DNA of 64,000 nt from Aerophototrophica crusticola (lineage in GTDB: Bacteria > Pseudomonadota > Alphaproteobacteria > Azospirillales > Azospirillaceae): assembly GCA_001939945.1 (NCBI GenBank), contig MOEB01000010.1, positions 62,001 through 126,000 of the forward strand, in the 5' to 3' direction. The first letter of the stretch is position 1, and every line of letters begins with the position of its first letter. Made by a program: the position numbers and the translations under genes. Under the pieces are notes generated by a model. It did not search any database. It was not told where the DNA came from and worked only from the letters and a program-made list of their open reading frames with translations. Positions 7,326 to 59,274 of the stretch are shown here, piece by piece.

Positions 7326-7415
7326 GGCTTCCGGTTCTTGGAAGCCCGGTCCGGCGACGACGGCCGCCGCGCGGGCCCCCCTCGCGCAAAGCATGGGCGC
7401 CCGGCGCTTGAGGGA
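7326..7415 (+). repeat. Multi-hairpin element, degenerate copy (family of four)
   Basis: The order of parts matches the copies at 20733, 54439 and 59168: a first hairpin (GGCTTCC 7326-7332 with GGAAGCC 7340-7346), CCGGCGAC, a GC stem, GCGCG/CGCGC, CAAAGC, then GGCGCCCGGCGCTTGAGGG. It lies in the 385-base gap between the divergent bactofilin and argD genes. The sequence is decayed but the architecture is kept. I see no gene in this gap. Confidence 0.6.
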
Positions 7416-15437: not shown

Positions 15438-17150
<1,713 letters not shown>

Positions 17151-19618: not shown

Positions 19619-20551
19619 GTGCCCGATACCGACGACATGGCGATCTTCGCCCGGGTGGTGGAACTGGGCAGCCTGTCCGCGGCCGGGCGATCCCTGCGCA
19701 TGTCCCCGGCCCTGGTCAGCAACCGCATCGCCCGGCTGGAGGGACAGTTGGGCGTGCGTCTGCTCAACCGCACCACCCGCCGGGTGGACTGCACGGCGGA
19801 GGGCGCCGGCTTCTATGAGCATTGCCGCGGAATCCTGGCCCAGCTTGAGCAGGCCCGCAGCGAGCTGGCGGAGCGCACCACCAAGCCCACCGGCCCCATC
19901 AAGGTGACGGTGCCCTGCGGCTTCGGCCGGATGTACGTGGCCCCGGCCATCCCGGCGTTCCTGGAGCGCTTCCCGGACCTTCAGGTGCGCCTGGACCTGA
20001 CCGACCGGCTGGTGGATTTGATCGAGGAGCAGGTGGATTTGGCCATCCGCATCGCGGCGCTGGAGGACAGCACGGCCATCGCCCGCACCCTGGCCCCCAA
20101 CCGCCGGGTCATCGTCGGCGCGCCCGCCTACCTGGACCGTCGCGGCCGGCCACGCACGCCAGAGGATCTGTTCGAGCACAACTGCCTGCTCCTGCGCTTC
20201 CCCGGCTCCCAGCAATACCGCTGGACCCTGGGCACGCCCGACGGGCCCGTCACCCTGCCCGTGTCCGGCACCATGGATGCCAGCAACGGGGAGGTCCTGC
20301 GCGACTGGTGCCTGGCCGGCCACGGCTTGGCGCTGAAATCCCTGTGGGAGGTCTGGCAGGACATCCGCGACGGAAGGCTGGAGGTGGTCCTGCCCGACCA
20401 CCCGCCCCCCGGCCACTCCATCACCGCCCTATACCCCCACGGCCGTTACCTGCCGGTCCGCGTTCGCGTGCTGATCGACTTCCTGGTGGAGCTGTTCGGG
20501 CCGGTGCCGCCGTGGGAGCGGGAATGGGTGCTGCCGGCGGGGGGTGGCTGA
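19619..20551 (+). CDS. LysR-type transcriptional regulator
   Basis: This 310-residue LysR regulator has an N-terminal winged helix-turn-helix (VVELGSLSAAGRSLRMSPALVSNRIARLE, about 10-40 in part) and a type 2 periplasmic-binding-like effector domain (about 92-300). GTG 19619 follows GAGGGGAG; ATG 19637 is an alternative. It is oriented with the urease operon and lies before the purine genes, so it could control either. LysR proteins usually control divergent neighbours, which this one lacks. Effector unknown. Confidence 0.9.
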   Translation: MPDTDDMAIFARVVELGSLSAAGRSLRMSPALVSNRIARLEGQLGVRLLNRTTRRVDCTAEGAGFYEHCRGILAQLEQARSELAERTTKPTGPIKVTVPCGFGRMYVAPAIPAFLERFPDLQVRLDLTDRLVDLIEEQVDLAIRIAALEDSTAIARTLAPNRRVIVGAPAYLDRRGRPRTPEDLFEHNCLLLRFPGSQQYRWTLGTPDGPVTLPVSGTMDASNGEVLRDWCLAGHGLALKSLWEVWQDIRDGRLEVVLPDHPPPGHSITALYPHGRYLPVRVRVLIDFLVELFGPVPPWEREWVLPAGGG

Positions 20552-20732: not shown

Positions 20733-20890
20733 GTCTTATACCAAGCGCATGAGTTTCTGACTCATGCGCTTGGAGGCCGGCGACTGCCGGCCCGCGGGCC
20801 CATGCCCGCGTGAGCCAAGCCGCCGGATGGCGGCGCCCGGCGTTTGAGGGGCCGTTGATCGGTCACGATCAACGGCGGCTGGTATTAGAC
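20733..20890 (+). mobile_element. Multi-hairpin MITE-like element, best copy (11-bp terminal inverted repeats)
   Basis: This 158-base element is bounded by GTCTTATACCA (20733-20743) and TGGTATTAGAC (20880-20890), which match as inverted repeats at 10 of 11 positions. Inside are consecutive hairpins: CCAAGCGCATGAG with its complement (to 20773), GGCCGGC/GCCGGCC (20775-20792), CGCGGGC-CCAT-GCCCGCG (20793-20810), GCCGCC/GGCGGC, and CCGTTGATC/GATCAACGG. It encodes no protein. Related copies are at 7326, 54439 and 59168 (inverted). The terminal repeats suggest a non-autonomous mobile element; no matching transposase is in the window. Confidence 0.7.
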
Positions 20891-20924: not shown

Positions 20925-21434
20925 TCAACCCACCAGATCCCGCAGCCGCAACAGCGCGATCCGCTCCACCTGGGCCAGGGCGGTGGCGAACTCCGTCTCA
21001 GCGTCGTTGTGGATGCGCGCCTCGAAAGCCTCCAGGATCTCGCCCCTGGTCTTCCCCTTCACGGCTAGGATGAAGGGGAAGCCGAACTTGGCGGTGTAGG
21101 CCCCGTTCAGTTCGGTGAAGCGGGCGAACTCTGCCGGGCTGCACTTGTCCAGGCCGGCGCTCGCCTGCTCGGCCGAGGACGCGGCGGTCAGTTCCCCCGC
21201 CATCGCCAGCCGCCCCGCCAGGTCCGGGTGGGCGCGCAGCAAGGCAAGCTGCCGTTCCCGCGGTGCCGCCCGCACCACGGCGGCCAACGCTTCGTGCAGG
21301 CCGTCGGCCGTGTCCCAAGCGCTCCGGTCGCCCCCGCCGGCCAGCGCCCCTTCCGCCACCCAGGGCGAATGTTCGAACACCCCGCCGAAGCGGGCGACGA
21401 AGGCGGCATCGTCCATCAGGGAAGGCTTTGTCAT
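20925..21434 (-). CDS. uraD: OHCU decarboxylase
   Basis: This decarboxylates 2-oxo-4-hydroxy-4-carboxy-5-ureidoimidazoline to S-allantoin, the last step of urate conversion. The 169-residue product has the catalytic HPDLAG motif (H69) and the FGFPFILAVKGKTR block near 128-141. ATG 21434 is chosen; GGAG lies about 10 bases upstream, and longer frames add nothing conserved. It is divergent from uraH, with about 180 bases between them, a likely regulatory region for the purine locus. Confidence 0.93.
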   Translation of the reverse strand: MTKPSLMDDAAFVARFGGVFEHSPWVAEGALAGGGDRSAWDTADGLHEALAAVVRAAPRERQLALLRAHPDLAGRLAMAGELTAASSAEQASAGLDKCSPAEFARFTELNGAYTAKFGFPFILAVKGKTRGEILEAFEARIHNDAETEFATALAQVERIALLRLRDLVG

Positions 21435-21614
21435 CGGGCGGGGCTCCACATCCTGTTGCCCCGATCTTGCTTGGCTTGCCCGGCCCTGTTCATGGCGAAA
21501 TGCTTGAAAGTCTTTCAGCGGGCAAACCGGTGTGCGTTGCGGAAACGGGCTTGCTACCTTACCGGATCGGGCCGGAACCTGACCGGCAGCGAAGCCCATG
21601 ACCAGGGAGCGGGG

Positions 21615-21968
21615 ATGAGCGGGGATCGGCGGCTGACCACCCATGTGCTGGACCTGACCCATGGCACGCCCGCGGCGGGCCTGTCCATCACCCTGTTCGC
21701 GCTGGAAGGGGGGCGCCGCCGGGTGGCAAGTGCCGTCACCAACGCCGACGGCCGCTGCGACGGGCCTCTGCTGGCGGGCGATGCCTTCGCGTCAGGACTT
21801 TACGAGCTGGTCTTCGACGTGGGCCGTTACTTCAGGGACCAAGGCGTGCCGGGCCCCGCCTTCCTGGAGGAGGTGCCCATCCGCTTCGTGGCGGCGGAGG
21901 GGCGGCAGCACTACCATGTGCCGCTGCTGGTTTCGCCCTATGGCTATTCCACCTACCGCGGCAGCTAG
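21615..21968 (+). CDS. uraH: 5-hydroxyisourate hydrolase (transthyretin-like)
   Basis: This hydrolyses 5-hydroxyisourate, the urate oxidase product, to OHCU. The 117-residue length is typical. The family's N-terminal LTTHVLDLTHGTPA motif and the diagnostic C-terminal YRGS tetrapeptide are both present. There is no signal peptide, so it acts in the cytoplasm. GGAG sits 6 bases before ATG 21615. xdhA follows after 15 bases. Confidence 0.95.
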   Translation: MSGDRRLTTHVLDLTHGTPAAGLSITLFALEGGRRRVASAVTNADGRCDGPLLAGDAFASGLYELVFDVGRYFRDQGVPGPAFLEEVPIRFVAAEGRQHYHVPLLVSPYGYSTYRGS

Positions 21969-54438: not shown

Positions 54439-54521
54439 TACCAAGCGCATGAGTTGTTGGATCATGAGCTTGGAGGCCGGCGACTGCCGGCCCGCGGGCC
54501 CTTGCCCGCGTGAGCCAAGCG
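54439..54521 (+). repeat. Multi-hairpin element, truncated copy
   Basis: ACCAAGCGCATGAG starts a first hairpin, followed by GGAGGCCGGCGACTGCCGGCC, CGCGGGC-CCTT-GCCCGCG and TGAGCCAAGC, as in the copy at 20733. The distal GCCGCC hairpin and the right terminal repeat are missing. The element stops exactly at the end of the next gene (stop at 54522). Confidence 0.75.
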
Positions 54522-54788
54522 TCAGGACGGGCGGCCTTCCCGCCTTTGCCGTGCCATCTCTGCCAAGGACACCCCGACAAGGCCCAAAGCGGACCCAATG
54601 CTGACCATGCTCAGGATGTTGCGGTTCTCACGGTGGCTTTCGGCATAGGTCTGCATGATCTCGGGCACGGACAACCGCGCCAATTCCTTCAAAGGCGCCG
54701 CGGGCTCCCGACTTCCGAAGAAGAACACGATTGCCGCGCAAGCCATGACCCCCGTCAGAAACGCCCGCGCAGCCCTCAGCAAACCCAT
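54522..54788 (-). CDS. Small two-helix membrane protein
   Basis: This 88-residue protein has membrane segments at about 6-24 (FLTGVMACAAIVFFFG) and 60-78 (MVSIGSALGLVGVSLAEM), with a polar loop between and an arginine-rich tail. ATG 54788 has AGGGGA 8 bases upstream; a longer frame from 54851 lacks support. No family recognised. Confidence 0.6.
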   Translation of the reverse strand: MGLLRAARAFLTGVMACAAIVFFFGSREPAAPLKELARLSVPEIMQTYAESHRENRNILSMVSIGSALGLVGVSLAEMARQRREGRPS

Positions 54789-59167: not shown

Positions 59168-59274
59168 CCCTCAAGCGCCGGGCGCCGCCATCCGGCGGCT
59201 TGGCTTACGCGCCCATGGGGGCGCGGGCCGGCGGTCGCCGGCCTTGTCAGGCGCCCATCCGGGATGGGCACCTG
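59168..59274 (-). repeat. Multi-hairpin element, inverted copy
   Basis: Read on the minus strand it has the same order as the copy at 20733: a first hairpin (AGGTGCCCAT/ATGGGCGCCT, a different sequence), GGCCGGCGACCGCCGGCC (59226-59243), CGCGCCC-CCAT-GGGCGCG (59208-59225), AAGCCAAGCCGCCGGATGGC and GGCGCCCGGCGCTTGAGGG. The third stem differs from copy 1 by compensatory changes while the CCAT loop is kept. It ends 2 bases before the TTG start chosen for the Smr gene. Confidence 0.8.

Follow-up and report, generated by a model that had tools for sequence, protein, structure and literature searches.

The 146-bp element at positions 20739–20884 (+ strand) of the window, the window being the whole 64-kb stretch of DNA analyzed, is likely a non-autonomous, MITE-like mobile repeat that inserts at TNA targets with a transposase supplied in trans, and whose fold is under selection. 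By the tests and searches made, it is best read as belonging to a new family of structured MITE-like elements, outside the REP families and Rfam 15. Like a MITE, the repeat is short (146 bp), multicopy (at least 150 copies), non-genic according to our gene finder, and bordered by a duplication of fixed length (3 bp, TNA).

Architecture, copies and spread of the repeat

The element begins with TACC, ends with GGTA, and is a full-length member among at least 150 scored matches in its own genome. Its limits are marked by a TTA repeat on both flanks (20736–20738, in the context C-TTA, and 20885–20887, in the context TTA-G), which the sequence check and the duplication statistics indicate to be a target-site duplication. 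The terminal inverted repeat does not have the 11 bp of the original prediction: the two ends share five exact bases (TACCA/TGGTA), and eight of the first 14 bases match overall. To the left lies an ORF with LysR domains that ends at 20551, and to the right a convergent ORF (20925–21662, − strand) with an OHCU decarboxylase domain.

All modules lie on the + strand. The order starts with H1, a long and variable outer hairpin (CCAAGCGCATGAG/CTCATGCGCTTGG, 20741–20773), followed by H2 with a GACY loop (GGCCGGC-GACT-GCCGGCC, 20775–20792) and H3 with an nCAT or nCGT loop (CGCGGGC-CCAT-GCCCGCG, 20793–20810). Next come the conserved linker AGCCAAG (20813–20819), whose last G is the foot of H4; H4 itself, with loop GGAT (GCCGCC-GGAT-GGCGGC, 20819–20834); the conserved tail GCCCGGCG..TGAGGG (20835–20850), of the general form GCCCGGCGNNTGAGGG; and the outer hairpin H5 (GCCGTTGATCG/CGATCAACGGC, 20851–20876). 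The outer hairpins were recognized by stem scoring (against controls for H1) and ssDNA folding, H2 by covariation and ssDNA folding, and H3 and H4 by covariation, which is strong in both and for H4 is seen in own-genome and foreign copies. The G+C content of the core is about 80%. As ssDNA, the 146-bp element folds at −65.4 kcal/mol, compared with −34.5 kcal/mol for shuffled sequences (z −10.0), and none of 200 shuffles was as good.

Four copies with the same hairpin order had been proposed in the window, which holds in part: all four places exist, and a covariance model of the core, run over 159 kb, gives each of them a score, but the whole core is present only at 20733 and 59168. The first of these cores (20774–20850, + strand) scores 103.8 bits. 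The second (59168–59244, − strand, 97.2 bits) has an exchanged H3 stem and an H1 hairpin of different sequence (CAGGTGCCCATC/GATGGGCGCCTG, 59248–59274, − strand), and TACC/GGTA ends were not seen on it. The copy at 54439–54552 (+ strand; model match 54474–54552, 58.6 bits) retains the TACC end, H1, H2 and H3 and is cut after H3, where it decays. The copy at 7326–7414 (+ strand) is decayed, with H1 at 7326–7346 and a core remnant without H4 at 7351–7414 (30.7 bits, E 1e-4 in this 159-kb search). The exchange of the third stem between CGCGGGC/GCCCGCG and CGCGCCC/GGGCGCG with the CCAT loop kept, pointed out at the outset, was confirmed, and the genome contains several stem types of this sort. The first hairpin had been said to keep its fold with differing sequence; this is true of 98 of 152 own copies, which score above the 99th percentile set by 304 control stretches; the other 54 do not reach it.

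A 77-nt core query found at least 46 matches in the own genome (best 40 of 268 candidates scored). The covariance model R1, built from 19 copies, found at least 150 at E ≤0.1 in 6.06 Mb (best 150 of 19548 candidates scored); from 51 plus 121 model matches, we kept 153 and dropped 19 as opposite-strand echoes or weak second matches. At E ≤0.001, R1 matched 21 of 40 genomes (own included). Every one of the 10 same-genus genomes searched had a match, and six of 13 other genomes of the same family had none. The pattern AGCCAAGN5GGATN5CGCCCGGCG retrieved at least 113 stretches among named genomes, and the matches listed come from Niveispirillum, Nitrospirillum, Azospirillum, Magnetospirillum, Telmatospirillum, Novispirillum, Falsiroseomonas, Roseococcus, Sphingorhabdus and Erythrobacter, plus a MAG labelled Kiloniellales. 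A slightly looser core pattern hit 16 of 289 genomes of the class (own included), in 10 families, and its reversed control hit none in any genome; the spread is patchy, several of the 16 genomes having just one or two matches.

No Rfam 15 family fell on the core, whether in the window at gathering score or, at E ≤1, at four own loci and eight loci of other genera, and among the literature matches listed no title or abstract describes the repeat family. Elsewhere in the window, Rfam reports 5_ureB_sRNA (64.9 bits, 15592–15877, − strand) antisense to a large ORF (15438–17150, + strand), which is perhaps mere coding similarity.

Copies vary in their parts. A second class has a CCGGCGGCGAC core, an H1 of the form AGAGCGTGTTTACG... 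and an H5 of the form GGCTAGACCCG...; its linkers and tail are those of the window type and its ends differ, and a clear target duplication was not seen in it. H1 is absent from some copies, and others carry an extra hairpin ahead of the tail; this optional hairpin (GAGCCTGCCCCGG...) occurs with both core classes, at L027, L059, L111, L116, L078, L119, L108, L122, L039 and L083. By eye, a long-range inverted repeat near ACCTCAAG...CTTGAGGT, in which the TGAGG tail takes part, appears to close the copies at two Sphingomonadales loci (L191, L203). Tandem core arrays with a period of about 88–115 bp occur in relatives (L290, L291, L293). On the complete chromosome of G005 (contig C1), 37 copies on the + strand and 29 on the − strand look blocky, in strand runs that are possibly replication related; 12-kb GC-skew samples gave no clear replichores in this genome.

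Covariation and the probable folding of one strand

The 119 own copies aligned to R1 conserve the three core stems: pairing holds in 98.9% of 2339 cells, and two-sided change is seen at 14 of the 20 core pairs. Their covariation score is 0.409, which no shuffle reaches, kinship being ignored; shuffled partners give 0.094 and slid partners no more than 0.066. Because this alignment leans to the model, we turned to H4 in foreign copies, using a pattern that fixed the loop and flanks and left five bases per arm free. Watson-Crick pairs filled 576 of 600 free cells (96%) in the 120 distinct contexts of 131 matches, and 90.8% of cells in 39 distinct stems, against 48.6% (maximum 60%) with partners shuffled, kinship again being ignored. 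The equivalent shuffling in the 119 own copies brought standard pairing down to 79.5%, and by these two comparisons GC bias alone does not account for the stems. Outside the core, 109 strong H1 hairpins of own copies are built on 49 different 6-nt feet. The selection on structure put forward in the original prediction is thus upheld by covariation in own copies and by the unbiased foreign test, and selection on the fold appears well supported.

Two-sided changes could also stem mostly from quasi-palindrome DNA repair, in which template switching copies one arm onto the other, rather than from selection on the fold; the element would then be an ordinary palindromic MITE, an explanation that we consider unlikely. 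The stems are near perfect, with G.U in just 26 of the 2339 cells, and they change mainly by G-C to C-G flips with few intermediates. Since G.U is rare and such flips are frequent, DNA-level arm copying may account for some of the two-sided changes. As a test for RNA, G.U against A.C is mixed: the ratio is 26:10 in the core of own copies and 32:13 in strong H1 hairpins, 51:57 once weak H1 hairpins are included, 29:26 in H5 and 4:4 in foreign H4, the last two being in favor of arm copying. Arm copying leaves unexplained, however, why loops and unpaired segments (AGCCAAG, GCCCGGCG..TGAGG) are common to different orders, although some of these positions were preset by the scan pattern, and tandem G.A mismatches persist against it in one polarity.

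These mismatches (CGAG...CGAG) occur in H3 of 24 of 119 foreign copies, with a GGA/GGA form in four, and in H4 of four foreign copies; many of the copies, from MAGs and Sphingomonadales, do not count as independent cases. Tandem mismatches of the complementary type were absent from the copies examined with control patterns. Because the tandem G.A mismatches keep to one polarity, it is probably one strand that folds. We infer that the fold would act single-stranded, either as ssDNA while the element moves or in transcripts at gene ends, where it might serve as terminator, as insulator or as the transcript end.

Insertion at TNA and candidate mobilizers

Our survey of ends covered 250 copies (153 own, and 97 foreign with full flanks), of which only 30 distinct rows show both TACC and GGTA in range. 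Their flanks read TNA (left, T in 29 and A in 28; right, T in 28 and A in 25), preceded by C in 15 rows and followed by G in 19. The flanking 3-mers are identical in 15 of the 30 rows, compared with a shuffled mean of 5.6 (fraction 5e-5), and in seven of 13 under a stricter count; 4-bp duplications were found in none of the 30. One element (L005:1466-1611) is nested in the tail of an older copy, its insertion site being the TGA within a tail of the GCCCGGCG..TGAGGG kind, and its flanks, CGA and TGA, are a TGA duplication with one change. Near-identical copies also occupy different sites. Past mobility had been suspected from the ends of one copy, with target-site duplications as the feature to look for; the 3-bp TNA duplications, the nested insertion and the near-identical copies bear this suspicion out on a much larger set of copies, and mobility appears well supported. 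A check for empty sites in the same genus gave, as best listed gene-only match, 71% over 212 bases (G004), the query being swamped by the repeat.

In another genome, G043, the end motif TNATACCNNCGAGCC occurs at 538 places, against one for the reversed control, and TACCNNCGAGC stands at both ends of 16 pairs, which were found by searching for that motif. Duplications are present in six of eight core copies (shuffled mean 2.2); the 15 scorable end pairs taken together exceed chance weakly, with eight matching 3-mers where shuffling gave 4.4 on average and 10 at most. The same genome holds, at 17 places (L318-L334), a form of about 100 bp that lacks H3 and H4 and has the same internal junction throughout, with matching 3-mers in six of 12 scorable cases (shuffled mean 2.6). 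That this form is found at 17 places suggests that the core is dispensable for movement; recurrent deletion after insertion is the other reading of it.

In the mechanism that we propose for a MITE-like repeat, a putative transposase acting in trans would recognize ends starting TACC/GGTA, and insertion at C-TNA-G would duplicate the TNA. The interior hairpin series (H2, H3, AGCCAAG, H4 and GCCCGGCG..TGAGGG) would be maintained by selection acting on how one strand folds. The transposition itself would be of the DDE type. A 3-bp TNA target duplication is known from the IS1031 group of the IS5 family, which the repeat resembles in this respect. Unlike that group, the repeat could be paired with no transposase whose ends match: PF13359 has no match in the own genome and PF01609 a single one. 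This last match, considered as an IS5-like partner, is an IS whose ends are unlike those of the repeat (L240, G000:C272, small, near the contig end). Other leads yielded no autonomous element among the end motifs read. The ends searched for in the own genome gave 28 places, whose inverted pairs are listed about 150 bp apart; of the unpaired places among them, the one read, on C273, is a decayed copy. A 683-bp end pair in G043 contains an older copy plus other DNA.

A REP-type TnpA had been suggested as the mobilizer, and this idea fared poorly: PF01797 (Y1/RAYT) has no match in the own genome, nor in nine of 10 same-genus genomes, the tenth (G010) giving one marginal match of 24.5 bits. A REP/BIME or REPIN family moved as ssDNA by a RAYT (Y1 HUH) transposase would share with our repeat its palindromic, intergenic, high-copy nature and its one-polarity fold, and one genome with at least 119 repeat matches (G015) does hold two Y1 matches. 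Yet the repeat core was not found at the six of seven Y1 loci scanned, the A1 consensus has neither a GTAG nor a CGTC tag on either strand (at consensus level), and Y1 transposases are not known to produce a 3-bp duplication. The lack of a RAYT match in the own genome argues in particular against a classical REP, and we regard this origin as most improbable. REPs are described as palindromes of 20–40 bp with a GTAG or CGTC end, those of the CGTC kind predominating in alphaproteobacteria, with stem variants and no known dedicated transposase (PMC3733652). Compared with REPs as presented there, our repeat is likewise palindromic and present in high copy, but it has up to five hairpins, a tag-free consensus, other conserved segments and TNA duplications (PMC3733652).

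Gene context and relation to known repeats

Genes were called with a simple codon-score gene finder, and none of the 152 own copies lies inside a predicted gene. Once the element length is subtracted, and with gaps of any size counted, 13 of 117 gaps with a copy are divergent, compared with 48 of 213 copy-free gaps (p 0.012); for convergent gaps the figures are 41 of 117 and 29 of 213 (p 1e-5). When a 100-bp threshold is applied, again with length removed, the divergent depletion remains (10/56 vs 40/110, p 0.019) and the convergent enrichment is no longer significant (10/56 vs 10/110, p 0.13). The uncorrected test (convergent 51/143 vs 10/110; divergent 13/143 vs 40/110) overstates both effects, because the element lengthens its own gap. 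Within tandem gaps, 47 copies are sense and 37 antisense (p 0.33), a near balance that does not indicate an mRNA role.

These positions bear on whether the repeat is instead a structured RNA, cis-acting or small, that spread by ordinary duplication, with incidental TACC ends. The avoidance of divergent gaps would suit such an RNA, as would the conserved unpaired segments and a one-polarity fold with tandem G.A. We nevertheless hold it to be very unlikely: it must contend with the TNA duplications, the nested insertion and near-identical copies at different sites, as well as with the missing sense bias (47 vs 37) and the absence of any Rfam family on the tested copies.

Stop codons recur at set distances from the core. 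Among 102 upstream genes that point at the element, 11 stop 35 nt short of the core; all 11 use TGA or TAA, and in six TACC follows directly. Another 11 end 29 nt before it, eight of them with TAG. On the other side, the stop lies 34 nt from the core in seven genes (six use TGA or TAA, and four have GGTA before it) and 42 nt from it in eight, all with TAG. Because TAA and TGA are themselves TNA sites, insertion into a stop codon would restore the stop and do little harm, and a number of copies sit exactly there; the TNA target would thus be a simple reason for tolerated stop-codon insertions. Gene context is not the main support for the mobile-repeat reading.

The BOX elements of Streptococcus pneumoniae appear to be closest in behavior (PMC3049150). 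They are modular and interspersed, are predicted to form stem-loops if transcribed, are thought to be parasitic, and often supply the stop codon of a neighboring gene (36 of 58 overlapping CDSs) (PMC3049150). Our repeat is similarly modular, interspersed and stem-loop-forming, with stop codons at its edges, but differs from BOX as portrayed there in host phylum, sequence and modules, in a core that occurs in genomes from at least 10 families of a class and in its observed TNA duplication (PMC3049150).

Bacterial MITEs are typically AT-rich, and the TIRs of QMITE2 measure 23–29 bp (PMC10969869). The likeness to them lies in a short, non-coding, intergenic repeat with apparent terminal repeats, target duplications and stable secondary structure; the difference lies in a core of about 80% G+C and in the 5-bp exact TIR of the window copy (PMC10969869). 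A further difference from MITEs is that, in the foreign copies read, the interior of the present repeat looks better conserved than the ends. One might go further and see here a class-wide selfish element whose one-polarity folded module would be recognized single-stranded, as RNA or ssDNA. The fold and not the ends would be lasting, and the end hairpins would be interchangeable and recruited to different transposition systems in each lineage; this we hold to be possible but doubtful.

Bacterial MITEs are usually seen as remnants in decay whose ends are what hold them together. The structured MITE-like repeat described here has an interior that occurs in genomes from at least 10 families of a class, clear covariation and tandem G.A motifs, and it is the ends and outer hairpins that vary. 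A core covariance model would label many intergenic regions that are now without annotation, and it becomes possible to test an old question, whether the folded interior of repeats like this one does anything for the element or the host.
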